A DNA stretch of 64,000 bases from assembly GCA_009869945.1 (NCBI GenBank), contig WIXG01000011.1:124001-188000 (forward strand), written 5' to 3'. The notes beneath the pieces are model-generated. The model was not told the DNA's origin. It was given only the letters and a program-made list of their open reading frames with translations, and made no database searches. How positions within the stretch are numbered: the first letter of the stretch is position 1; every line of letters starts with the position of its first letter. The DNA comes from Mesaphorura yosii. Lineage: Eukaryota; Arthropoda; Collembola; Poduromorpha; Tullbergiidae. Made by a program: the position numbers and the translations under genes. Shown here one piece after another: positions 1,339-64,000 of this stretch.

Positions 1339-1665
1339 ATGCATGGAATAATCAGATCAATCTTGCCGTCAACACACTTGCGGCTGACACTCGCCACGTT
1401 CGTCGCCTGCGTCGTGACTCTTCTCTTGATCACCTGCGAATGCCAGGCCAGACAATCGCAGCAAGCATCTGCGTCGTCCCAGAACAGCGTCATCCGAAAC
1501 GGAGTAAAAATCTGTCTCAACAACTGCGGCCAGTGCAAACGAATGTATGGCCAATACTTCGACGGGCGACGGTGCGCGGATCGCTGCGTACAAGCCAAAG
1601 GAGTGTTTATTCCAGATTGTCAAAGCCTGAACTCAATCAAGAGTTTTATTATCTCTAAATTTTAG
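1339..1665 (+). CDS. Eh: Eclosion hormone (EH1)
   Basis: Secreted neuropeptide hormone. In insects eclosion hormone acts on receptor guanylyl cyclases of Inka cells to trigger the ecdysis sequence. The single-exon protein has 108 residues. The first ATG is at 1339, and codons upstream in the frame are not ATG. A signal peptide with hydrophobic core around residues 16-32 is followed by a short Ser/Gln-rich spacer. The mature domain carries six cysteines in the family order: C-x3-C-x2-C near the start (KICLNNCGQC), then GQYFDGRRCADRC, then IPDC, ending SIKSFIISKF. This parallels the insect pattern ICxENCAQCKK...WFEGxLCAExCxxxKGxxIPxC. An AATAAA at 1722-1727 is the likely poly(A) signal. The neighbouring gene on the minus strand ends only 92 bp away and encodes a second, divergent family member, so the pair looks like an old inverted duplication. 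Confidence 0.9.
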   Translation: MHGIIRSILPSTHLRLTLATFVACVVTLLLITCECQARQSQQASASSQNSVIRNGVKICLNNCGQCKRMYGQYFDGRRCADRCVQAKGVFIPDCQSLNSIKSFIISKF

Positions 1666-1721: not shown

Positions 1722-1727
1722 AATAAA
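1722..1727 (+). terminator. Poly(A) signal of EH1
   Basis: AATAAA lies 57 nt after the EH1 stop codon. An opposite-strand AATAAA (read from TTTATT near 1644-1649) lies inside the end of the EH1 coding region and would serve EH2. The two convergent transcripts probably overlap by roughly 100 nt. Confidence 0.5.
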
Positions 1728-1756
1728 CAGATGCAAGTGATTTCATGAGTATTCCT

Positions 1757-2301
1757 TCAATTTCGAATGAATCGGCCAATTGTTTTGATGTCCGTGCAAT
1801 CAATCTTTGGGACATCGCCCTCAGAGTCGAAATCGACTTCCTGGTTGTCCTGGTCGTTGTCCTCTGCTTCGGTTCCTCCTCCAGCTGCTCCTGCCCGCTT
1901 GTTCCATGGGTAGTAGTAATTGACTGGCACCGGCACGCGCGGCCCGCTGCTCTTCTTGTACGGCAAACTCATCTTGCATGTTTGTGCGCAAGAATAACCG
2001 TCAAAGTAGTCGCCGTATATTTTCACACATTGCGCACAATTCCTGGGAATTGGTAAAGTAAAATTAACAGGCAATTTATTACTATTTACACAGACGACTG
2101 TGAATGTCATTTGCAAAAATGCTGGTTGACTTACAACAGGCAAGTTGGATTAATCCTGGACAGTTTCTGCTTCTGGTGTGAGTGAAGCATGTTCTGAATT
2201 GATCCCACGCTGGTCCCGGCTTGGGTCGCAATTACGATGAACAGGCAGCTGAGAAGAATAAGAGATGTTGAAACTTGGTGATGGCTGGTATTTGAGCTCA
2301 T
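1757..2301 (-). CDS. Eclosion-hormone-like prohormone with insertion (EH2)
   Basis: Two exons, 2301-2135 and 2042-1757, joined through a GTAAGT donor and a CCAG acceptor with phase maintained, encode 150 residues. An ATG-led signal peptide (core about residues 13-27) precedes a spacer and an eclosion-hormone domain: PTCLLNCAQC, then YGDYFDGYSCAQTC, then a final PKIDC and TIGRFIRN. All six family cysteines are present. Unlike ordinary eclosion hormone, about 45 residues sit between cysteines five and six. The insertion starts with a KK pair, contains a Pro/Tyr-rich stretch (VPVPVNYYYPWN), then KR, then a Gly-rich and strongly acidic segment. It may be removed by prohormone convertase, or it may be a tolerated loop. 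Family membership is clear; the function of this form is inference. Confidence 0.85.
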
Positions 2302-2390
2302 GTTGACGTCCTTTAAGTTGAGAAAGACAGCGACAGCCAAACTCGGAACAATTTCCAGTTGAGGCAAGACGGCAGAAAGCTGAAAAGACG

Positions 2391-2430
2391 ACTGAGCAGC
2401 CTCGTTCTCTCCACAGGTGATTTTATAAAG
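2391..2430 (-). promoter_or_regulatory. Core promoter of EH2: TATA plus TCAGT initiator
   Basis: On the minus strand TTTATAAAA (2421-2430) is followed by the arthropod initiator TCAGT (2395-2391). The spacing from TATA to the initiator A is about 32-34 nt. The predicted start near 2393 leaves a leader of about 92 nt before the ATG at 2301. Confidence 0.6.
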
Positions 2431-2470
2431 GAAATCCGAGAAATGCTTACTGGAAATGGAAGACGGGCTC

Positions 2471-2606
2471 ACAAGGAGAGTCCACAGGTCGTCCCCTTTG
2501 AAATCCAGCCTAAAATTTTTCTGGTGATAGCCCCTGCCCTCAAACCTCAAAAAGTGGTCTCAGTTCGCGCAGTGCTCAGAGCAGCCCAAGTTATTGCAAA
2601 AAGAAT
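2471..2606 (+). repeat. Inverted repeat, left arm (136 bp)
   Basis: This stretch reappears in reverse complement at 2792-2927 with only a few mismatches (for example GCAGTGCTC against GCAGCGCTC). The arms are separated by 185 bp. The left arm begins about 40 bp upstream of the EH2 TATA box. The structure resembles a foldback or MITE-like element. I could not define target-site duplications. Confidence 0.85.
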
Positions 2607-2791
2607 CTTGGAATTTGCACATGAAAATACAGGAATTTTGTTTGTAACGTTTGTTTGTGACTTTAATGGGCGCCATTTGTTTGTTAATGTTTTGTTAATT
2701 TTATAAATTTCATGAGGGGGCTGTACGTAAAACAACAACAACTTCACGTGCTAATTCCCATAAAGAATTCTTTACTTCGTCATTTGCGAAA

Positions 2792-2927
2792 ATTCTTTTT
2801 GCAATAACTTGAGTTGCTCTGAGCGCTGCGCGAACTGAGACCACTTTTTGAGGTTTGAGGGCAGGGGCTATCACCAGAAAAATTTTAGGCTGGATTTCAA
2901 AGGGGACGACCTGTGGACTCTCCTTGT
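2792..2927 (-). repeat. Inverted repeat, right arm (136 bp)
   Basis: Reverse-complement partner of 2471-2606, about 97 % identical by eye. It borders a stretch (2930-3380) in which I see no gene, followed by a decayed non-LTR retrotransposon end. Confidence 0.85.
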
Positions 2928-3394
2928 CAGTGAAATTGACAATTCAGGTGAAAATGAGTTTAGATTCATCAAAGACCGTCGGCAAAGAAGCGTCTCTCAT
3001 TTCTCGTAATTGGATTACCGGTCTGGAAGTGTGAAATCCAGTTTATTTGAAAGTGGAAAAGCACAGAGCAAGATTCAATAAGAGCGAAGAAGAGTGGTAC
3101 TTGGAGTGCACCGAGTACTAACGAAGTTACATGAAGCGAGTGGCTTTCTGAGATTTAATTCGCGACAGACGTAAGAAATATCATAAACCAAACCACCCAC
3201 ATATCTTTCCAGCTAACTTTAACTCTATCCTGCTTTTGCTCAACTGTTACCTTCTTATGAGCGGTGTTTTTGTTTTGGTGGTTTTACATTCTGAGACAAC
3301 CGGAAACTAACTGCAGCTTAACTCGAACTCCACTGAGATATAACCGGAGGTGCATGGGCAGAAAGAAGAAAAACTAGACAAGTTCGCCTGAAGC

Positions 3395-4335
3395 TCCATT
3401 GCCTTGTTGTCACTTCTCTATGCAAATCAGATTTGGGGTCTTCGCTATTTTAGGAAGATGGAAACTTGTCAAACCAAATTCATTCGCAGAGCAATGGGAG
3501 TCAAACCTATGATTCCTAGCAGTATTATGAGAATTGAGACTAATCGATTACACATCGCGTACTATGTTAAGCAGCGGCATTGAAATTCTTGTTTAGGCTA
3601 TCAATAATTCCCAGTGATCGATACCCCCAGAAAATGCCTAGACAGATTAGTGCAGCTAGTTAGAGAAGATAAATCCAACAAGGCAGAATACAACTGGCTC
3701 TCACAACTTAAAAAGCTGGCACAAGAAGTGGACTATACGTTCTAGAAACTGATACGTCACCACAAACAATCCTAGATAATTACGTCGACTTCTGCCAACG
3801 TATACGTGATCTCTCTAGGCGATTAGATCGAGAATCTTGCACTAGAATCGACTTATACTCCTATTACACAAACTTCCGGGTTTTTACCACTGATTTACCT
3901 TCGTTTGCGGTGAAAACTTTCCTTCCTACAAAAGTATCAACAATTCTGCTTCAACTAAGATCGAATGCAGACTATCTTTACTTGGACGGGCGATGTTATT
4001 ACATTAGGGGTGAGGAGCTTTGTTCTTGGTGTAATCAATGTGCGCCAAATATTTTATTTACTTTATTTACGATTTGCCCATGATGGGAGCAGAGGTGAGT
4101 ATTTCGACCAGTTCACCTTAGGATTATACACTTTCTACCGGTTAATCGATACTAAAGTTCTTGAAACGGGTAAGACGCTGTCCTACTTTGTTCTGGATAA
4201 TTTAAGGAGCTTAAAATACCTGACTGAAGTAGAAAATCATACCAACTAAGGATCAAATTTAAAAGATTGTAGACCTGTCATGTTCTATGGGCAGATGCCC
4301 GTCAAGAGGGCAAATAAAATCATTATTCTATTCTA
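3395..4335 (+). mobile_element. Degenerate non-LTR retrotransposon 3' end
   Basis: Translation across several frames gives the conserved region after the reverse-transcriptase palm. It includes YANQIWGLRYF, then ETCQTKFIRRAMGVK, then IPSSIMRIETNRL. This matches the usual non-LTR pattern of a Trp-Gly pair, a leucine/arginine-rich RRxLGV motif and an E-T-G/N-R-L segment. Further on, near 4010-4100, a cysteine motif of the type C-x2-C...P...CP (CSWCNQCAPN, then ICP) follows, typical of the C-terminus of Jockey/RTE-type ORF2. The copy ends in an AATAAAATCATTATTC-type tail near 4308-4330. Stop codons and frame changes show it is dead, and no 5' half is visible. The family assignment within non-LTR elements is uncertain. 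Confidence 0.7.
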
Positions 4336-4866: not shown

Positions 4867-5473
4867 TTAGAAGAAGGGCGGAGAACCAAACGGTAGCTTC
4901 AGAAATGAGAACAAAGTGAAAATTACAGATGTAATATGGGCTGAGGTCAGCATTGAAGTTTGGAGGAAGATGGAGAACAGCTTCACTTGGGAGACAACTA
5001 AATGCACTTGAAGAAAATAAAGAAGGTGGTACGCCATTAGTAAACCAAGGAGGGCCAATATAGCCATACACGTGGTGACTGCAGTGTGACTTGTAGCAGT
5101 TTGTCTGATTTCATGCTGCATATTGGCTTCATCGATTGATCCTGTTGGCATTGACATTTATCTTGAAACCTTGCTCAAAACTCGAGACCTTGAAGAAATT
5201 GTCTCAATGGAATGCACTTACCGAATCGAATGTTTCATTGATACTCCGCACCCTGTATAGAAGTGTCGACAAGAAAAGCGGATATCGAAACATGTGTACG
5301 TGCCCCACGGTTGAGAATATCCAACCAAATATGAGAAAAATGACGGTGAGAAGGTTCCAAGAATTCTGTCCGACTTCGTGCCGGAAAATGCTCCGGTACA
5401 CGAAGCAGGAGAGGAGCGCAAACGTCCTTCCCGCCAGGTGTGCGGTCCTGGTGACCAGGAGCCATAATGACGA
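4867..5473 (-). CDS. Multi-pass membrane protein, partial model (possibly broken)
   Basis: Two exons can be supported. One runs 5473-5222, with acceptor AGCTCAG and donor GTAAGT, phase 0. It encodes a basic stretch and two hydrophobic spans, including NLLTVIFLIFGWIFSTVGH. The second starts at a TGCAG acceptor at 5115, phase 0, and is open to a stop at 4867. It holds three more hydrophobic spans, including CMAILALLGLLMAYHLLYF. The motif around QVKLFSIFLQ faintly resembles the K/F-x2-FQ segment of organic solute transporter alpha/TMEM184 proteins, but that is a weak lead. A further hydrophobic stretch in another frame (about 4590-4700) may be another exon or the other side of a frameshift. The start exon was not found; a candidate short exon lies at 5620-5700. 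It may be a pseudogene. Confidence 0.35.
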
Positions 5474-5479
5474 CTGAGC

Positions 5480-6500
5480 TTAAAATCGTTAAGTCTTTCG
5501 ACTCCATTTTGTTGGTAAAACGAAGAACATCGTGTTTACAACCCATACGGTGGTGCAAATGAGTTTCGTTGTAATTGGAGAAAGTACTCGATTACGTAAA
5601 TGCAATTGGGTTCACCTGCACTTGCAGTGTTCGCGATTCGGGTCGATTGGTGCACCCGCATCTCTGTTTTGTCGTTTGATCTGACAAATCAATGTCCCTG
5701 AAGAGAAAAGAAAGTTCTCAATTGTACTCGCCGTTCTTCTATCGAAGTGTTGCGATTTTGCAGGACTTTGAAGGTCAAATGAATTAGTAACGAATCCTTT
5801 AGCTCTTCGCCCTCCCATTCTATGTCGTCAATACAAAAGCAAAAAATGAATGGAAATTCCATACGATTTCATATTCTTATAATGGAAATGCTAGAATGAA
5901 TGTTAGCTCACTTTCCCAACGAGACAACTGTGCTTGCTTGGCAAATTCAATTACTTTTGGAGCCCACGATGGAAAATTTAAATTAATTGGACATGATCCA
6001 TGTGTTACATGTCGAATTTCATGTCTTCGTCAAATGAAATTCGACTTTTGGCGATTGGGATTGGAATTCCTTTCCAGCATTAGCAATGCTTTAAAAACTC
6101 GTCATTACTTTGCCCGTCTAGCATGAGCTCAAAATGCACGTCGATTTGACAAATTGGCAAATGGAAAACTACTAAATTGGAAATATTCAGTCACTGATCA
6201 CGCTTTACTTGCCATAAGCATTCTTCTTTACTTTTTCACAACGCAACTCGCAATTTATCGGTTCAAGATAGCTTTATCTTCAGCGAAACAAACGAGCACA
6301 AACGAAAAATGTAACACAACGAACACTATCATCACCATCAGTAAATCATTATTGTCATTTCTTTGGGTTTGGGTTTTTGACACTTTGGGCTTTGGAGTAT
6401 TTTTGCAGTTCGCACGTCTTAAATTCGTAAATTCCCTGACCGACCTCACCAAGGCAGACAGGTAGACATTTCTCAACATAACACAGCGTACGCACATGAT
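5480..6500. other. Intergenic, AT-rich, no clear gene
   Basis: An open frame at 5896-6126 on the plus strand and its neighbours show no signal peptide, domain or splice continuity that I recognise. On the minus strand 5620-5700 has an acceptor (TCTTCAG) and a donor-like end, and may be an upstream exon of the membrane-protein model. The rest looks non-coding. The peroxidase transcript ends just beyond, near 6505. Confidence 0.35.
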
Positions 6501-41799: not shown

Positions 41800-42350
41800 G
41801 CTGATTAAAGATTAAACTCTTCAGCCTCTTCATTAATTAGTAATTGTGACTCACAAATATCTGGAACAGATTTCATAAAAAAAGTAACCTACAAAACTTT
41901 ATGTATCATCGAATTTCAATTACCCAGAATTGTGCGAACTTTATGTATCAATTCGGTTACTTTGAGTTTCGCACTTTCAATCAAACGGCGGGTACTATGT
42001 GATTTTGGTTTCAAGAACACCTCATTCATACCAGTGAAAGCTCTTACGAAAAGTTAACTGTGTTGTGTAGAAGAAGTTAACAGTATAAATTATGAATTAA
42101 TTAGTTCATAACAGTAAATGAAGTTTTAGATGCTACCTTATCGTATCATGCATCACAGTGTTTTGTTAATAATTCCGTCGTTTCGGAATTTCAAGAACGT
42201 CTGAACCTGATCACAACACGATTGGATCGATTGTTGTGAGACGACAAACGAGACGTGAGACGGAATTAATTGACTTTGGCATCGTTGTAAGTGTTAAAGC
42301 TTGCATTTCATTCAGGATAGTAGGCGGTATTAATATTGCTTCAATCCGTT
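41800..42350. other. Intergenic and WASHC1 leader
   Basis: AT-rich spacer. A splice acceptor CCGTTGCAG at about 42346-42354 precedes the WASHC1 coding exon, so part of this interval is a 5' leader exon and intron. The open frame from 42236 into WASHC1 has no ATG of its own. Confidence 0.45.
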
Positions 42351-42382
42351 GCAGGTATTCTAAGACAAACCCTGCTGTAGAA

Positions 42383-44153
42383 ATGAAAGTTGAAGGTGAG
42401 ACGAATGGAAAATATAAGGTACGCCTTATTCCACCCAACTGTCACCACGAACAAATGGTGGTCGAAATCGTCGGTGCTCTTGATTACCTGGATGCAATCA
42501 CCAACGAAATCTTCACCAACTTGGAGACAAGACTGAGGAATCAGCGGAAGAAAATGTCTAATATCTCGACCAGAATTACGCAAGCTTCCGAGAAGATCGA
42601 TCAGTTAAAGCAGAGCCGTAAAGGATTACGCGTCGTGTCTTCGTCCAAATATCCCGAACCTGACTGCAACTACAACGGACAGCCCGGGTTCTCAAATTGT
42701 GGTGTGCTGAAAGGAATTCCTGTCCTCAAGCTAAGAAAACTTCCAACACAGCAAGACTTCATTGCCAACAATTACGAAGTGATCGCGCGAATCAAAACGT
42801 TAAGGAGTATTTACGAGCCATCAGTAAAGAATATCGAAGAACTCCTACAGTTCTATCATGTGCTTGATAAACATGAGCATATCCTTAACGGATTCAAAAC
42901 GTGTGAGGATGATGCTATTCCTCAAGGAATCTACGACCTGGGGCAACCGCCGGCGTCCTTGAAAGATGTTGACTCATTTTTTGTGTTCAATTCCCTGGAA
43001 AATGCGTAAGCAAAAGGCTAATGCCGCGTCAAACCTACCGATAAGAGACTGTCGTTTTAATTATTGCCATTCTGTGCGCAGGTACAAGTCGCCGGACAAA
43101 GTTGGTACGAGCAGCACTGACGGCAGGTTTTCAAAGAAAGACAAAACGGAAGATTTGCTCGCTGCACTTAATGAGACCCCTTCAGATTTGACTGATAACC
43201 CTACTTCGAAGTCTGAAGCTGACGACTTTTACTACTATCCATCATCTGTACAAATACCTGACATTGATGTTCCCGAGTTTCTCCCAGATCTTCCAGGTTA
43301 GTGACTGGAACTGGTCTGTAGAAAATTGGAAAAACTAATTTAAAATATAATATTTGTTGTAGGTATTATGGATACATTTGGGGATCTGAATAACTCATTC
43401 GGGTCTTCCGATTCTTCCTTACTGCTTGCATTCCAAAAACCTAGTCCAGCGTCGACAACAGATTCCTCATTGAACACGAATGCTCCAAGGAGTAGCAGTG
43501 CAATCGTGACACCAATTTCGCCACCTGAAGGTATTGCTTCAGTTTCTGCTGGCATCCCTGGTTTCTCTCCAATTCAGGGCTCAAGCGCGCCAGTACAGCC
43601 AAGCACATCTGAATCTGCTCACCCGGTCAGAGCTCCTATTCCACCTGCAACTACAGGCGGTTCTGTTCCTCCACCACCACCGCCTCCTCCTCCACCCATG
43701 CCACTTGAAACATCTGCGTCAATTCCTGCGAAAACGCTCAGCACTCCAAAACCACCCGCCCAAACTATTTCATCTGGTAGTACGGGCGGCGAGGACATGC
43801 GATCTTCTCTGATGGCCGCCATTCGTGCCGCTGGAGGAAGCGGCAGTGGAAAACTAAAATCCGTGAAAGACAGGCGCGATGAGGCAAGGCGGAAGAAGCA
43901 GGAAGAGAAAACTGGTCCTAGTGGAAGTGCAATGGGACCAAGTGTTGGTGCTCAAGGCGGCGTTGACATGATGGCTGATTTGAAGAACACGCTCGCCATG
44001 AGAAGAAAGGGAATTTCTGGAGCGGCCGCAAACAGACAGCCTAATCTTGGCGATATTATGCAAACAATGGCGTCAAAAATTCCTAACTTGAATGATGACG
44101 ATGAATTCACAAGATCGGGAGGTGGATCGGATGACGATGACGGGTGGGACTGA
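42383..44153 (+). CDS. WASHC1: WASH complex subunit 1
   Basis: Activator of the Arp2/3 complex on endosomes; in the WASH complex it drives branched actin for retromer-dependent sorting. Three exons, 42383-43005, 43082-43296 and 43363-44153, encode 542 residues. The N-terminal WAHD region starts at ATG 42383 (KVRLIPPNCHHEQ) and contains a coiled coil (residues about 50-85) and the conserved SSSKYPEP. The linker carries the family sequence FYYYPSSVQIPDIDVPEFLPDLPG. A Pro-rich tract with ten prolines lies near residue 385. The C-terminal verprolin-central-acidic module follows: RSSLMAAIRAAGG (WH2), DLKNTLAMRRKGISG (central), and an acidic end DDDDGWD with the terminal Trp needed for Arp2/3 contact. 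It converges with the IPPK gene; its AATAAA at about 44276 lies only some 20 bp from the IPPK stop. Confidence 0.95.
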
Positions 44154-44296: not shown

Positions 44297-46332
44297 TTAA
44301 TTATTCGCCGAGTATTCTTTAAAGCTCTTCAGCATATCACAATCTTGAACACATTGCTTTGGAATGCATGTAAGTGGTTTTATGTCCATGTCCACCAGAC
44401 CCAGCTTTACTTGATAGGAGCAGCCGCCAAACAGGTCGTTTAGGTGCAGCATTCGCCGATCATCACAATCGCCTTTGCTTTCGCGTTCGCCGTCCGTTGT
44501 CGCAGACGCACAAGCTTCTTCGTTGGAATTGGAGATCGCAATCATTAGTGAGCAGTCTTTGGCTGTGGCAGAAATCAAGAAGTTTTGAATTCGACAATCT
44601 TCCTCTTCTGTCAGAACAGATTGACTGCGTGTCTTCATGCATTCTTCGTCGTACCAGACCTCAGATGCGAAACAAGCGCCACTAGGGCATAAATCAGAGG
44701 AATTCGAGTCCCCGGAGCCGTTATCTGCTTGTGAATGAGTAGGGCATATTTTCTTGTACACTTCCAGGATGGAGGACGGTTCTTCTTGACTGAGTGACTG
44801 CAGGAAGATGATTTTTGAAAGCACGCAGTCTGGCAAAGCATTGTTGTTGTCGTTCGATGTGTTGCATGCATGACGCTTGCAAGAATCTTCATCCAGCGAA
44901 GCAAGGCCACGGTGCTCAAAAAATTTCTTTAAATTCTTTTCGAAATTGCTAAAAAGCTCCTTTGACTTGGCTGCCCTTTCTTCGTTTATGCCCTGATCTT
45001 GCAATGGGGCCATCAGTGCCAAGCAAATTACGTGCAGAAATCGCCAAAGGTGCCTATTAACGATAATTTTAGCATTTACCAATAAAGTTTATTCACAGGT
45101 GAGCTGACTAATTGCAATTATGAATAACAGCACGCACCTTGAATTAAAAATGTCCTCCTTATCTTCGTACTGGACGGGCAAGGCTTTATCGCTGCCGCGA
45201 TCGGAGGACGGACTAATTTCAACCATCTTGAAATCTTCGAACCATTGATTCACAAACCCGCGTAAAATGCCCATATCATCCCCGAAAACTAGGTCACCGC
45301 CCTAAATATGCATGAATTCATATTAATTCCAAGATTATATTAGAACTGCACACGGAACTAGCACCTTGAAAATACGAAGGTTATTTTGTGGATTTTGTAA
45401 AAGTGCAATCAGCGCAGAAACCATACGGTCAGGGACACTGCATAATCAATAAGAGAAAGCCGTCATTAGAACCCAAGGAGATACGCGGATCAACTAGCGT
45501 CTCACTTACCCTGAAAATATATCCAATGGGCAATAATTGCTCCGCTGTGTTATCTTGCCTTGCTTCAACTAAGCAATGACGAAATAGAAGAAATCAAGAT
45601 TAGGTGCAATGCAGAAAATTGGTAGAGCGACCTGATTTTCTTGCTCACCTTTAAACACTGGCGAATACAGAAATTGCAATAACTTCTCTCTTGAGCCAAC
45701 TCTGATGTGTTAAACCAGCCTTGCTTCAGCTTAATTTCGACGCAATAATCTGTCTGATCTAATGTGGTTGGATGTATTCTAGCGAAATCTGGGCGGAGTG
45801 TCCCTTGAACAAATCCTATTTCTTTGTGAAGACGGTTTTCTGAAGCACAAGAATTAAACGCTATGAACGCTATGCGGCTATACCCTGTCTTTGAGTGCGA
45901 TACTTACTTGGCCTAATTAAGTTTAGCTTCTCATTTAGCAAGGCAATCTGCTCCTCACTAATCTCAACAATTTCGACTGTACCCAAGAGTTCCGGTCCAA
46001 CGAGCCGTTTCACGATATTATTGGCCCTGTCCATTTCACGGCGCAGTCTATCCTGGTGGCGCCTGACAACTTCTTGTAGATCGGACTCGTTAGCGCCATT
46101 AGCATCACTTCGGTCTTGGTGAAGTTTAGTTGATTTTGATAGCCGAAGCACACGCAGTTCCTGAAATCAATGTGACATAAGAACTGTCAATCTGTCTGTA
46201 CGTTTACAATTACGCTATTGCAATTGCGCGTAAGGGTGGACTTACATTGTCCAGCCCAATAACTATATTTGCGTTGCCTTCTCCACGGTAGGTCCACAGC
46301 ACTCCTTCGAGATCAAGCTTATTGACTTCCAT
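44297..46332 (-). CDS. IPPK: Inositol-pentakisphosphate 2-kinase
   Basis: Makes inositol hexakisphosphate by phosphorylating the 2-OH of Ins(1,3,4,5,6)P5. Seven exons close in phase (46332-46246, 46160-45908, 45839-45649, 45568-45510, 45437-45365, 45301-45138, 45053-44297) and give 527 residues. The start WTYRGEGNANIVIGLDN is the nucleotide-binding loop (family YxGEGNxxLV). CVEIKLKQGW matches the EIKPK motif but with Leu for Pro. Next come CNFCIRQCLK (zinc-ligand Cys region), NYCPLDIFSG, QNPQNNLRIFK, and near the C-terminus SATAKDCSLMIAIS and LGLVDMDIKPLTCIPK, which bear the catalytic Asp region. A poorly conserved Cys- and Asn/Ser-rich acidic segment of about 110 residues lies in the last exon. 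It converges with WASHC1. Confidence 0.92.
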
Positions 46333-53263: not shown

Positions 53264-54481
53264 TCACTGATTCAGCGACAGGTCGATAACTCCAGGTTGA
53301 ACTTGAACCAGGTTCTGTGCAGAGGTTGAAGCTGCTGCTGCGGCGGCGGCTGCCATTCGACTGCCTCGGTGACTTCTCCTCCCACCTCTTCTATGGGTTG
53401 GTCCAGCTCCGTTCATGAGTAATGCATGCATTTGACCCATGAAATCCACAATACGCGGAGCAATCGCAGGCTGTTGCTCCTGAAGTTTCCGTTCGGCGAT
53501 GAAAGCGGCGCGACGTGATTGAGTATCGGCTGAGAGCAGTAAGTGGGTCTTTTCTACGAAGTTGTCAATCTCCACATGACGACTGCTTCCACGAACAGTC
53601 TTCCGACATATTGGACAGTCTCCTTTCTTTCGAAGCCATTCACGGATGCAGTACGAACAGAAAGTATGACCGCAGGTGGTAACACGCGCGTCTACAAAGA
53701 CTTCACTGCAAACGCTGCAGCACAACTCGGACTCCAACAGGCCGTTGACTCTTCCTCCAAATTCCTCCACTTGATCACGGGTCGTCTGCAATTCGTCTTC
53801 TAATCTTCTTTTCTCTATCTTTAATCCGTCAACATGCTTTTTGTTAAGTTCTTTTGCTCGAGCTAGGCGACCTCGTAATAGTTTGACCTCTTCGATGAGT
53901 TCTGTTTGAGTGAGTGATTCCAGGGGTTTATCGTTTTCGATTTGTGCATTGTATTCCTCGTCATCGGAGAGTTGAATAAGCTCGGGACGTCGCTTTTGAC
54001 TGGTTGGTGTACTGTGCCAGTGTAGCTTTCGTTTCTGGCCTTTCTTCTCGTCAATGATTACTGGTTCCGCTGGGCTCTTCACGCTTAACAGGCTTTCGTT
54101 GTCGTCTTCATCAACAACAACTTCATCATCAGAATTATTGTACAAGAATCTGTACACGAGGTGGCCTCCTGGAGTTGGTATAAACTGAAGTAGGTCTTGA
54201 TGTTGGAGTGGGAAAAACTGCTGCTGTGCCAGACGACGGGAGTTTATACTGATTCCGTTGGTGCTGACGTCACGAATGAACCATTTCCCATTTTCATTCT
54301 TCAATTCAGCATGCCTTCGGGAGATCTGGAGTGATTCAAGCACAATGTCGTTCTGCGCCCCACGGCCAATATTCATAATTTTTCCTCGGAGTGGACATGA
54401 TGACGGTGTATTTTCTGATCTGAGAACCTCTCCTGGGCCTGGGACTGCTTCGCGGACAAGGGTGGCTGTGATTGGATTCAT
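53264..54481 (-). CDS. RNF8: RNF8-like FHA/RING E3 ubiquitin ligase
   Basis: Nuclear E3 ligase; in the RNF8 family the FHA domain reads phospho-threonine on MDC1 at DNA breaks and the RING builds ubiquitin chains on histones or linker proteins. The gene is a single exon of 405 residues. The FHA domain spans residues about 15-115, with the phosphopeptide-binding GRGAQNDI, ISRRHAEL and STNGISIN. An acidic linker with a KKGQKRK cluster (possible nuclear signal) and a coiled coil (about 190-250) follow. The C3HC4 RING (about 255-293) is complete: CCSVC, CGHTFCSYC, CPIC. The C-terminal tail has an arginine-rich stretch and a run of alanines. Order FHA, coiled coil, RING matches RNF8 rather than CHFR, which has an extra Cys-rich domain. 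The gene diverges from CEP89 across about 675 bp. Confidence 0.88.
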   Translation of the reverse strand: MNPITATLVREAVPGPGEVLRSENTPSSCPLRGKIMNIGRGAQNDIVLESLQISRRHAELKNENGKWFIRDVSTNGISINSRRLAQQQFFPLQHQDLLQFIPTPGGHLVYRFLYNNSDDEVVVDEDDNESLLSVKSPAEPVIIDEKKGQKRKLHWHSTPTSQKRRPELIQLSDDEEYNAQIENDKPLESLTQTELIEEVKLLRGRLARAKELNKKHVDGLKIEKRRLEDELQTTRDQVEEFGGRVNGLLESELCCSVCSEVFVDARVTTCGHTFCSYCIREWLRKKGDCPICRKTVRGSSRHVEIDNFVEKTHLLLSADTQSRRAAFIAERKLQEQQPAIAPRIVDFMGQMHALLMNGAGPTHRRGGRRSHRGSRMAAAAAAAASTSAQNLVQVQPGVIDLSLNQ

Positions 54482-54489
54482 TTCGACTA

Positions 54490-55150
54490 CTTCCTGAATA
54501 CATTTTGGATAGGGAATAATTATTCGAGGTTTCCCTGAACGAAAATACGTACATCTGAATCTGAATTACTTATAAGAAATTAGCAGCTTACCTGTTCCCA
54601 ACTACGCTTAAATGATACACTTCGTAGTTTAAATAACTGATGAACACGATGAGTCAGAAATTGTGGATGTCACCATAAAATTAAATCCCTTTGCCTGAAC
54701 TTCAAACTCTCCCTTCTCTTCTGTAGGAAGTCTTTCGTGGGATAGCATTGAACACGAACAATCAAGAACAGCACACAGAATAATTGGGTACAGCTCGTTC
54801 TCAGGGAGCGCAGACAAGGTATCAAAAGCAGGGCACACGTTTGTGGGACGTAGATCGATAGATCGCTCTCGCGTTGAGAATTCTGTCTGTCGATTACGCA
54901 CAACGGAAAACCTCGAAGAGGGAAAAGCGAAACCTTCATATGGTAAACATTTGAATCAACAGCTCAACAATCAATAATAGTACGTCAATTCCGCGTTCCC
55001 CGAGTTTTCAGCTCCCGATCCTGACGCGACGGTGCGTCTTCCGCTTTGGCATCAATGCTATGGTTTGAGATCAATATCCAACGTGCAGCGGGGAAGTCTA
55101 ATCACCTGAGATTGCGATGATGTGTCATCATTGCCTTGGAGTGAGCCTGC
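54490..55150. other. Divergent promoter interval, RNF8-like / CEP89
   Basis: Between two oppositely oriented ATGs. Open frames on the minus strand at 54629-54939 have no ATG-led domain and are probably leader sequence. No TATA box was seen, as expected for housekeeping promoters. Confidence 0.45.
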
Positions 55151-58968: not shown

Positions 58969-60529
58969 ATGGCCCCAAAAACGTTGGCGTTAATCTTGAT
59001 CGCTTTCCACCAGTTTTCGCAAGGCCATGGACATCGATCAACGGATTCTGTAGCAGAAACTGTCGCGTTGACAGAAGTATGAGATAAGACATAATACTTT
59101 CCACTGGACGACGAGACGTAATTCTAATTTGGTAATGTACCTTCATTCCAGTTCCGTGAACTAGTTGATCACCTTGCTTACCGCGAATTTATGAAATCAG
59201 ATGGCTATCTGATCAGGTGGTTGGAACGTAAGTGATTTTGTGAATTCATTCTGAGAAATGTAAAAATTACACGTGCTTAATGTCCAAATTCATTCAGAAA
59301 CCAATTTTGACGCGTATGAAGCCGCCGACAAATTTTCAGAGGTAGGCTCACGAAACAAGAAGCAGCTCATTTAATAGCATTTAACCCAATTCTTGTGAAC
59401 ATTAGTTTGTGGAATGGCGACGGATGAAGAAGGTTGACTCGATAGTTTTCGAAGATTTCTCTGGCATCGACAAGGAACATTTGATTGCATTTAATCTCGT
59501 TGACAAGGCTGGGCGCCCAGGTTAGTTGTATCCATCTACTTTAACCATGCTTCCATCGGAATTGATGTCATACTAATGCGGTACTAAACGTTTCAGGAAT
59601 TTACGTCCCATTTGGAAGCTTCGACATCCGAAAGATTGCAATCGCTGGAGCACAAGATCTCTACCAACGATACATGATTCGAATGTATGAGATGAGTGAA
59701 ATCTATCTGCACCAATTACGAGCGTCGCGCCCCAATGTAACGCATATGGTCGCAATTTATGACTTGACTGGCTTCAATTTAAGGATGGGTGGGTGCTTCC
59801 AGTGCGTGTCCATGATTCCAGAACTTATTTCAAATTTTGACCCGAATTATCCTGGCTTATTTTACAAAGCGTTTCTCATCAACAGTAAGTGAATTCACAG
59901 ATGCTATATTATTGTCAGTTGTAAGTAAAAACGTGCTTGCATTCTATTAATTTCAATCTTTTATTGCAGCTCCAAGCATTTTCCTCACCGCGCTCCGAAT
60001 CAGTGAGAGTTTCATGTCGGAGAAGACGCGGAAGTCGTTGATTTTGTACGGCTACGACAAAAGTGAATGGATTCCTGCTCTGCATGATCAATTTCCAAGC
60101 GAGCAACTACCCAAAGATTTCGAAGGAGTAGGGCCATCGTTTCATTCAAAGTCGGCAAAAGAGGCACAAATGAATTTCTTGGCAGATTTATTGCAAAGTG
60201 TGAGGGCAGCAGTGCGACGAGATATGAAAAATTCCGATGATTATGTTGAGTCTGCCCATGAATTAACGACGGCAACAATCAACAGTACAAACGTGAGTAT
60301 GGAAGCAGAGCATCCACCAGAAACTGAGAAGCAAAGGCACCACCATCACTACCGCATTAAGGAAAATCGTTACAAGAGTATTAGTGCTCCGGCAGCAGGT
60401 CGAGGAAAGTCAAGGACGCATTACTCAAGCTCGGGCTCGCACAAACGATTACAATTGGATTTGCCGGCGCTTTTTATGCTCCTCAACATTCAGTGTTCAG
60501 TTTTTGTATTATTTCATACTCTGTTCTAA
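58969..60529 (+). CDS. Secreted CRAL-TRIO/SEC14-like protein A
   Basis: SEC14-like lipid-transfer fold. Six exons (58969-59076, 59152-59227, 59298-59341, 59406-59520, 59597-59884, 59970-60529) encode 396 residues. The N-terminus is a signal peptide (TLALILIAFHQFSQGHG). The CRAL-TRIO-N-like segment contains YREFMKSDGYLIRWLE. The lipid-binding domain includes VPFGSFDIRK, YMIRMYEMSE, VAIYDLTGFNLR (the family's D-x-x-G strand), YPGLFYKAFLINTPSIF and a C-terminal TRKSLILYGYDKSEW. A basic, His-containing linker (KQRHHHHYRIKENRYK) precedes a hydrophobic tail (LDLPALFMLLNIQCSVFVLF) that could be a GPI-attachment signal or membrane anchor. Ordinary SEC14 proteins are cytosolic, so export is the notable feature. 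It shares exon phases with its two downstream neighbours. Confidence 0.85.
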
Positions 60530-60906
60530 GGAAAAGATCTAATTAATTGGTAATTAGTGATGAAATAAGCTCGTGTGATTCATTACTTTTCCAATAACGC
60601 TAACAGTTTACGATGGCATTTCTACTTTTTGCATTGAGCACAGATTTGCCATTTGCGTTTGCGCAATGCAAAGCAAAACTCATCACTTTCGATTGTAAGC
60701 TAAAAACTCAATTGAATCGTGAATTCAGCAGAATAAGAGACATCTTAAAGAGAACGACGATGTTATCCACATCAGCATCTTTAAATTCTATCTTTCAATG
60801 GTTAATGCAGTCATAGATTTGTCTTTGTCGTTTTCGGAGCTTCCGCCCGTGCGTTTCTAAAATCGGATGTTCATAAGTGCATAACGTGGACACGTACATT
60901 TTAACA

Positions 60907-62572
60907 ATGGCCATTATCTTTTATTTCGCTGTGCTGATCTTAATTAGCATTGAACAGCTTGTGCATCTAGAACGACGAGGCCAAGCTGTCGCAATTTCGA
61001 TGTACGCGAATTCGGAAGACGAGGACGCTGCTTTAACAGAGGTAAAAACACACAGCTTCCTCCGGTACACATTAAATTCTTGCTGAAACTCATACACGCA
61101 TGCCTGCATGCTGTCTTAATAGTTCAGGGAGTTGGTCGCTCCACTTGCGTATCGTACCTTCATGAAATCGGATGGCTATCTAATCAGATGGCTAATGCGT
61201 AAGTGAAAGTCTTACTTATCATTGCAGTGCAGTAAACAATACTGAAACTATGCTTAATACTTCTCATTGGAATCTTCACAGAGTATGATTTCGACGTGGA
61301 CGAGGCATTTGAGAATTTTAAAAAAGTAAGACCAGTAAGAGCAAGAGAAAAGTGCCAGTGCGTGAAAGAAGCAGCTGCTCTAAGTGGTTCTGTTTTAGAC
61401 CCTTGAATGGCGACGTCGGAAGAGAGTCGATCAAGCCGTGTGCGAGGAAATGCCACTTCTTGACGAAGAGCTGTCATATTCACTCGATACTTTGGACAAG
61501 GATGGACGCCCAGGTTCGTTCAGTTAGTTGCTATAATGTACGAGCAAGCTACCTGTTGCTAAAAGTGTCTACTATTTGGCAGTTGTGGTGACACCACTGG
61601 GACGACACGACTTGCGCAAGGTTATCATTGCTGGAGGCGACACTTCGTACTTCAGATACTTGATTCGAATGTATGAAATCTGCGAAATTTACTTGCATCA
61701 CATACGGACCACCACAAACCCGAACGTGACCCAAGCAATCTCCATTCAGGATTTGGCTGGATTCAATGTGAAAACCGTGGGATGCTTCAAGTGTATAAAT
61801 ATGATTCCAGAAGTCATTGCGGACATCGACCCAAATTATCCGCGATTGTTTCACAAGGGATTTATTATCAACAGTGAGTTTGTACTTACTGCAGACTGAA
61901 AGAGGGAAGGCTACTTAATTTTAGGGTAATAGGTTGATTTTTTGCATCGTAGTGCCTATAATCTTCCAAACTGCACTCGGGATGATTCTCAAATTCTTGT
62001 CGGAGAAATCGCGAGAGACCTTGCAAGCATTTGGCCACGACAAAAATGATTGGATGCCCGTCCTCCACGAACAAATTGCACTTGATCAACTTCCTCTCGA
62101 GTACGGAGGAACGATGCCCGCACTTCGAGGGAAGGCGGCGAAAGACAGTCAATTGAAGAACATCAAAATCTTGCTGACACGAGCACAAGAGGCTGCAGCT
62201 CAAGATTTCCAAAATCGTTCAGATGTGGACGTGAGCGCGAGCGAATCTGCGTTAATCGCACCGGACTCATTGGAAGAAAATACTAGTAATATTGAGCTCC
62301 ATCTTCCTTCTCCTTCGCATCCGCATCGGCATCATGAACATCATCATCATCATTATCACGCCACAACCACGCCGCGTTCAGGCTCCCTGACTTCGGGTCC
62401 GGGTGTCTTTGGACACGGAAATGAGACAAAATCAGAACTGAAGGAAACTGTGGCTCGGGCCGAAGCTGCTAAATTCTGGGACTCCACCATATTGCTTCAT
62501 CTTTGTTGTTTGCACTCACTTATCACCGTCATAATGCATTTTATGGCGTATTGTTTAATTTCTAATGAATAA
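60907..62572 (+). CDS. Secreted CRAL-TRIO/SEC14-like protein B
   Basis: Six exons (60907-61041, 61123-61198, 61282-61325, 61399-61513, 61583-61873, 61953-62572) encode 426 residues. Exon sizes 76, 44 and 115 nt are identical to those of gene A. Signal peptide AIIFYFAVLILISIEQL; a short acidic stretch (NSEDEDAAL) follows. The CRAL-TRIO core carries RTFMKSDGYLIRWL, LGRHDLRKVIIAGG, IQDLAGFNVK and YPRLFHKGFIIN. The C-terminal region contains a much longer histidine tract (HRHHEHHHHHYH) and ends in a hydrophobic tail (TILLHLCCLHSLITVIMHF). The histidine tract suggests metal binding, by analogy only. Tandem duplicate of gene A. Confidence 0.85.
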
Positions 62573-62579
62573 AGATCGA

Positions 62580-62900
62580 GAACTTCAATCAAATCAAAGG
62601 CAGCCACAGTCGAACATTTAATTGGAAAAATGATATAACAGAAACGGAGTCGGCTCACTTCTTAAAAGTTGCAAGGTAGGCGCACGCGAAGTATTGCGAA
62701 GTAGACTCATTGCTTTCTGCTGATGCGGGCCGGAAGTGTTAACTATGTAAAATTCTACATATGAATTGAGCTATATTGTCGGTCTAGATTGTGGTCATTA
62801 GTCCTTGCCTTCTTGGCACATGCGACATTTAACGTGCGACGAATTTTCATTAGTGCTTTTCTGTTTTGGTGAACAGTTGCTTTGTGTCCCTTCGTGAGTA
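62580..62900. other. Spacer between SEC14-like genes B and C
   Basis: AATAAAG follows the gene B stop immediately (62568-62575). The remainder is promoter and leader of gene C; no other gene is seen. Confidence 0.5.
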
Positions 62901-62906
62901 CTCACA

Positions 62907-64000
62907 ATGGTTGTGTTTTATTTCCTAACCTTAATCTTAATCATCGACATCTCCATCCTATCCGGATGTGGACCCGGACTTGGCCAAACTCTGGCTCATT
63001 CAATTTACACAAACTCTGAAGATGAAGATCGACTTCTGGCGGAGGTACTTCGTTGAACTTAATCTTAATCAACACACACAAGTTGACATTTATTTTGTCA
63101 TTTACCAGTTTCGGGAGCTGGTTGAACCATTGCCGTATCGTGAGTTTATGAAATCTGACGGCTATCTCATCAGATGGCTAAAAGGTAGTGAGAGCTTCGG
63201 CAAAATTCCATACTCCGTTTCTAAATTTATGATTCTAAGAAACATTCACACTTTATGAACGACAATACTTTTGTGTTTGGACTGACAGAGACCGATTTTG
63301 ATGTCTATGAAGCTTTGAAACTCTTCACAAAGGTAGAGCCACATTTAAAAGTTACTTTCTACTCTATATTACAGTCATTCTGATCATGAGTAATGTCCAC
63401 GTCGCAGTTCATAGATTGGAGACGAGACAAGAACATCGACATGGTCGTATTTGAGGATTTCTCGTTGATTGATAGTGAATATCATTATACATTCGAGTAT
63501 TTCGACAAGGATGGCAGACCACGTTAGCTTTTTGAAAAAACGTAGAAAAAGTAGATACCATTTTTAGGGGTTGAGGTATTTATTCATTGCAGTTGCTTGG
63601 GGCCCCATCGGAACTTATGACCTTCGGAAGACTTTTCTAACTGGAGCACGAGAAAAATATCGAAGATTCATGCTTCGAATGTATGAACTTTTCGAGACGC
63701 ACTTGCATCAATTGAGGGCCACAAATCTCAACGTGACGCAAATGGTTGCCATTTACGACTTCAGGGGATTCAATTTAAGAACACACGCCTGCGTAAAGTG
63801 CATGGAAATGATCCCGGATGCTGTCATCGATTATGGAAAGTATCCCGGCCTATTTTACAAAGCGTATGTCATCAATTGTAAGTACACCGAAAGCGTATTT
63901 GCCATGAAAATCACTATATAAAGCGGTAGGGTGATTTGTAGGTGCGAAAGTTTTTGACAAGGTGCTGAATGTGGGACGCAAGTTTATGTCAGAAGCCACT
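62907..64000 (+). CDS. Secreted CRAL-TRIO/SEC14-like protein C (partial, runs off window)
   Basis: Five complete exons and part of a sixth: 62907-63044, 63109-63184, 63289-63332, 63408-63522, 63593-63877, then from 63942 to the window edge. Signal peptide VVFYFLTLILIIDISILSG; acidic NSEDEDRLL as in gene B. Core motifs: YREFMKSDGYLIRWLK, WGPIGTYDLRKTF, MVAIYDFRGFNLR, YPGLFYKAYVIN. Internal exon lengths 76, 44 and 115 nt repeat those of genes A and B. The boundary between exons 4 and 5 joins CCA C|TT rather than CCA G, changing one residue. The C-terminal histidine and hydrophobic segments would lie beyond the window. Confidence 0.82.

Follow-up and report, generated by a model that had tools for sequence, protein, structure and literature searches.

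In the genome of the collembolan Mesaphorura yosii, an eclosion-hormone gene (EH2) was found in which 59 residues, instead of the 10 of ordinary members, separate the fifth and sixth conserved cysteines. The gene is located in a window of 64,000 nucleotides, the whole stretch of DNA analyzed (positions 124,001 to 188,000 of contig WIXG01000011.1 in assembly GCA_009869945.1, forward strand), close to an ordinary eclosion-hormone gene (EH1). The best explanation, which we hold at a shade under an even chance, is that EH2, a paralogue next to EH1, is a genuine second eclosion hormone whose long loop would be cut by a prohormone convertase to give two linked chains and a 17-residue peptide. Judged by its sequence, EH2 is a variant of a known hormone family, set apart from the ordinary members by the spacing between Cys5 and Cys6.

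EH2 lies on the minus strand, where two exons encode an eclosion-hormone precursor of 150 residues (Table 1). The two-exon model drawn for 1757-2301 in the first-pass annotation fits exactly, from ATG to TGA. The translation has a hydrophobic N-terminus (judged by eye) and matches the Pfam family PF04736 with 40.9 bits against a cut-off of 25 (E-value = 1.7e-10), over profile positions 12-37 of 61 only, and the eclosion-hormone domain in EH2 is beyond chance. All six conserved cysteines, which the same annotation had described as kept, are indeed present, at residues 54, 58, 61, 74, 78 and 138, and a seventh (Cys19) falls inside the presumed signal peptide. The RNA structure of exon 2 revealed nothing unusual (z = 0.30).

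Table 1. Features of the EH2 and EH1 genes, in coordinates of the window
Feature	Position	Strand	Remarks
EH2 exon 1	2301-2135	-	ATG at 2301; ends just after Cys1, phase 2
EH2 intron	2134-2043	-	92 nt, GT-AG (GTAAGT...CCCAG), G+C 0.337, in-frame stop
EH2 exon 2	2042-1757	-	starts before Cys2; TGA at its end
EH2 presumed signal peptide, residues 1-28	2218..2301	-	end set by eye on the translation
EH2 Cys5-Cys6 segment, 59 residues (79-137)	1799..1975	-	G+C 0.559
KK 85-86, possible convertase site	1952..1957	-	translation
SSGPRVPVPVNYYYPWN, 17-residue Pro/Tyr-rich piece between KK and KR, candidate released peptide	1901..1951	-	translation
KR 104-105, possible convertase site	1895..1900	-	translation
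Candidate chain B, residues 106-150, with Gly-rich and acidic leader, Cys138 and predicted C-terminal helix	1760..1894	-	translation, model
TATAAA upstream of EH2	2422..2427	-	followed after about 32 nt by an initiator-like TCAGTC, seen by eye
AATAAA, candidate poly(A) signal of EH2	1645..1650	-	inside the coding sequence of EH1 and antisense to it; a second one at 1611
EH1, precursor of an ordinary eclosion hormone (108 aa, single coding exon)	1339-1665	+	PF04736, 80.8 bits
TATAAA of EH1	1012	+	sequence motif
AATAAA, candidate poly(A) signal of EH1	1722..1727	+	sequence motif

The first four cysteine intervals of EH2 are the same as those of EH1 and of the krill hormone as printed in PMC3749230, while the last one differs (3-2-12-3-59 in EH2, 3-2-12-3-10 in the other two); the latter spacing is constant in the few members compared and is not taken as defining eclosion hormones. 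The excess of EH2 over EH1 between Cys5 and Cys6 is 49 residues, although the exact borders of the extra residues are not fixed by three sequences. A distance of about 45 residues had been given for this interval, which was too low for the actual 59, of which some 49 are extra, and the insert does not start with KK as had been stated, as six residues (KMSLPY) come first. The proposed order of KK, a Pro/Tyr-rich piece, KR, and then a Gly-rich and acidic run was borne out by the translation. The net charge over the 32 residues 106-137 is -10.

Compared with the eclosion hormones described for krill (Euc-EH, PMC3749230), L. vannamei (EH I and EH II, PMC11641175) and S. verreauxi (EH 1 and EH 2, PMC4018349), EH2 shares the six cysteines with the CxxxCxxC...CxxxC core, a presumed signal peptide, the YG.YF motif and a predicted helix after Cys6. 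It differs from them in the Cys5-Cys6 interval, which has 59 residues, KK and KR included, where 10 is usual (for L. vannamei, the printed cysteine positions give 10 in both hormones, PMC11641175), and its mature protein has about 122 residues, while the EH domains printed for S. verreauxi have 55-57 (PMC4018349). Eclosion hormone is an old hormone, whose reported range runs from cnidarians, where five of the six cysteines are present, to arthropods (PMC6660194). Two eclosion-hormone genes are described as common in non-winged hexapods (PMC4770511), and are also reported in several insects (PMC4237046) and in decapods (PMC6158917, PMC4018349), although the text of PMC6158917 gives insects only one. 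Because two genes per species are commonly reported in these sources, EH2 is ordinary as a paralogue, and the unusual part is the 59-residue span. In a search of open-access papers, no description of a two-chain or loop-inserted eclosion hormone was found.

A DNA query with the insert obtained one match in the 93-Mb genome, which was the insert itself, so there is no sign of a recent repeat insertion in a search that skips very common words and could miss a common repeat. A protein query of the genome obtained three exon matches, all in EH2 itself or EH1. Derivation of the insert from a repeat or from another gene was rejected on genome searches that skip very common words and gave only EH2 (DNA) and EH2 with EH1 (protein). 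In viral and prokaryote collections, which do not bear on the spread of the insertion among arthropods, no relative was confirmed among 24 and 27 pattern matches.

AlphaFold models of EH1 and EH2 were each built with two aligned sequences only, and it is from these models that we infer helix positions and disorder. EH1 gave a fair three-helix model (the best mean pLDDT is 80.4, while the other four range from 50.6 to 76.9), with predicted helices at precursor residues 46-73, 76-85 and 97-103. The model of EH2 was weak (the best mean pLDDT is 54.0, the other four 39.8-43.6, and 40 of 121 residues have pLDDT 70-90), with predicted helices at 52-68, 71-77 and 141-147, at places matching those of EH1. 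Residues 81-118 and 120-132 of EH2, both dibasic motifs included, have pLDDT below 50. In these models the insertion would sit in the linker that follows helix 2 and leads to the segment of Cys6 and helix 3. The loop is probably disordered, although with two sequences a low pLDDT says little about disorder, and what the EH2 model supports is only that the core would fold and the insert would not. A search of the PDB found no solved relative (the best E-values, 0.5 and 0.041, belong to proteins whose names suggest no relationship).

In the mechanism proposed here, the translated and probably disordered loop would join a helical hairpin (Cys1-Cys5) to the last cysteine and the C-terminal helix, and a putative prohormone convertase cut, made inside the secretory granule, would fall within the loop at KR 104-105 and probably at KK 85-86 too. 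KK is a weaker convertase site than KR, and KR followed by Ala is an acceptable convertase context. The convertase-type P-domain (P_proprotein) has five exon matches in the genome. When the segment was shuffled, 9.9% of the shuffles contained at least two dibasic motifs, and random draws with an assumed Lys+Arg content of 11.5% did so in 14.7% of cases; the dibasic pair alone is not beyond chance (P-value = 0.10-0.15). Furthermore, because the ordinary EH1 has KR and RR in its core, a dibasic motif, taken alone, does not indicate cutting in the eclosion-hormone family. The two proteins differ in where these motifs lie: KR 67-68 and RR 77-78 of EH1, between the first and the fifth cysteine, fall in predicted helices, whereas those of EH2 fall in the stretch with pLDDT below 50. 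Given a working gene with the insert in its mRNA, we would rate cutting at one or both sites as a little better than even.

The same observations allow a loop that is never cut, in which case EH2 would be a hormone of one chain whose long loop, disordered and acidic, may have grown neutrally or may tune receptor binding or granule storage. We consider this quite possible, if appreciably below even. It agrees with the number of dibasic motifs, which chance can provide, with their presence in the core of EH1, and with the description of eclosion hormones as single peptides with three disulfides in the sources compared; additionally, the Gly-rich and acidic low-complexity make-up would fit loop growth. 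On the other hand, both dibasic motifs of EH2 are predicted to lie in a low-confidence, probably exposed loop, and the Ala that follows KR is acceptable to a convertase.

If the loop of EH2 is cut, chain A (residues 29-84, five cysteines) would be disulfide-linked via Cys6 to chain B (residues 106-150, one cysteine), and cutting at both sites would free the 17-residue peptide. The linker with the two basic sites lies between Cys5 and Cys6, which would end on different chains. Because the cuts would come after the fifth domain cysteine and before the sixth, the cut chains would stay linked if all six cysteines pair. The two-chain idea put forward in the first-pass annotation is in this way consistent with the cysteine layout, but the dibasic motifs on which it drew are statistically unremarkable. 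In the eclosion hormone of moths, the pairing is Cys1-5, 2-4 and 3-6. For shrimp, the pairing as printed, itself a prediction, is Cys1-Cys4, Cys2-Cys3 and Cys5-Cys6 (PMC11641175). The two schemes differ, and under both of them chain B would be held by a disulfide. The crab eclosion hormone, the one in the sources compared whose mature form is reported as confirmed by mass, is a 56-residue peptide with three disulfides (PMC13234976), which counts against the two-chain reading of EH2. We infer the disulfides of EH2, its cutting, its secretion and its action on a receptor guanylyl cyclase alike.

Hormones of the insulin and relaxin type lose a linker that lies between dibasic sites, and disulfides keep their two chains together. 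The proposed processing of EH2, with an excised linker and disulfide-joined chains, would be similar, and an insulin-like two-chain product is plausible. EH2 would be unlike insulin in the single disulfide between its chains and in the 32-residue Gly-rich and acidic leader which chain B keeps before its cysteine. When both precursors were scanned against Pfam at E-values up to 1, the Eclosion family was the only one matched, and the Insulin family had no match. That EH2 is a two-chain hormone and that the 17-residue peptide is released and is itself a signalling peptide is rather unlikely.

EH1 covers PF04736 positions 10-58 with residues 56-104, without length difference. The two paralogous neighbours are convergent, with 91 nt between the ends of their coding sequences, and both are located in the first 2.5 kb of the window; EH1 differs from EH2 in its ordinary 10-residue Cys5-Cys6 interval, its one coding exon and its opposite strand. 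Because the likely poly(A) signal of EH2 sits antisense inside the EH1 coding sequence, the two transcripts may overlap tail to tail. In the whole assembly (93.0 Mb, 1127 contigs), PF04736 has two matches at E-values up to 0.001, which are EH1 and EH2 (6 of 6 candidates scored; the search went exon by exon, and a strongly split gene could escape it).

A 142-nt inverted repeat (2468-2609 and 2789-2930, 96% complementary, arms 179 nt apart) starts about 40 nt upstream of the TATA box of EH2 and has the look of a foldback or MITE-type element. Over the 9 kb that directly precede the window, minus-strand ORFs resembling a UDP-glycosyltransferase and an F-box-type protein were recognized by eye (1753-3790 and 5004-5714 in the coordinates of that piece). 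A domain scan of 10 ORFs, five of which had a match, identified a WASH-complex WAHD domain (42173-43006), an inositol-pentakisphosphate 2-kinase (44300-45088) and an FHA-plus-RING protein (53267-54565). At 59951-63918, exons of at least two tandem, mutually similar genes were seen by eye, and the scanned piece 61925-62569 matches CRAL_TRIO, which suggests a local SEC14-like cluster. In the genome, Chitin_bind_4 has 66 matches, and no member of the insect odorant receptor family 7tm_6 was found in a search run without positive control; these counts point to an arthropod, probably not a winged insect. A search for COX1 gave no match.

Between Cys1 and Cys5, EH2 is identical to EH1 at 15 of 25 positions and to the printed krill hormone at 13 of 25; in the tail after Cys6, the corresponding values are 5 of 12 and 4 of 12. 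The tail of EH2, scored without the cysteine, resembles that of EH1 (shuffle P-value = 0.003); of 2514 Cys-anchored segments in the window, six score at least as high, a number that includes EH1 and EH2 themselves. The last 27 residues of EH2 alone matched no Pfam family at E-values up to 10, while the corresponding 26 residues of EH1 did match (E-value = 2.3e-6). Because only the fragment of EH1 is recognized by itself, the C-terminal part of EH2 is, on sequence comparison, clearly the more diverged of the two. Such divergence, together with the inverted repeat beside the promoter and the fact that EH2 is known from a single genome, would speak for a decaying duplicate, a pseudogene in the making whose insert is tolerated debris; however, the reading frame is intact, the splice sites are good, and the six cysteines, a TATA box and poly(A) signals are present, which makes decay improbable.

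The insert is open over 59 codons, and its G+C content is 0.559, while it is 0.422 in the rest of exon 2 and 0.337 in the intron. Splice sites (GT donors in the case of donors) were scored with a generic metazoan matrix that was not trained on this genome. Within the insert there are seven GT donors (1968 to 1813), with ranks from the top 25% to the top 80% of GTs in the window, and the best acceptor in the insert is in the top 27% of window sites, whereas the donor and acceptor of the true EH2 intron are in the top 2.8% and 4.0%. Because no GT or AG inside the insert scores near the sites of the true intron, the mRNA of EH2 very probably keeps the insert. An intron that removes it had been named in the first-pass annotation as the finding that would overturn its reading; the possible sites were listed and scored, those inside the insert are weak, and an intron within the insert was rejected on these scores. 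On paper, 133 frame-keeping GT-AG or GC-AG combinations of at least 30 nt are possible in exon 2, and the donor at 2028 (upstream of the insert and before Cys3) is in the top 8.7%, but an annotation error, in which an unrecognized intron or alternative exon drops the insert to leave an ordinary eclosion hormone, is very improbable, with the donors in the insert at the top 25% to 80%, its acceptors at the top 27% or worse, and all five frame-keeping splices listed from the donor at 2028 losing the Cys3-Cys5 block. It is highly likely that EH2 is a working gene with the insert in its mRNA.

If the two-chain reading of EH2 is true, it would be the first two-chain eclosion hormone known to us, and insulin-like maturation would have arisen independently in a hormone that acts via a guanylyl cyclase receptor. 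From a natural variant in which the loop ahead of the last cysteine is long and possibly removed, one could learn where eclosion hormone tolerates interruption. Furthermore, EH2 would illustrate the evolution, after gene duplication, of a two-chain hormone out of one with a single chain, its ordinary sister EH1 serving as the control.
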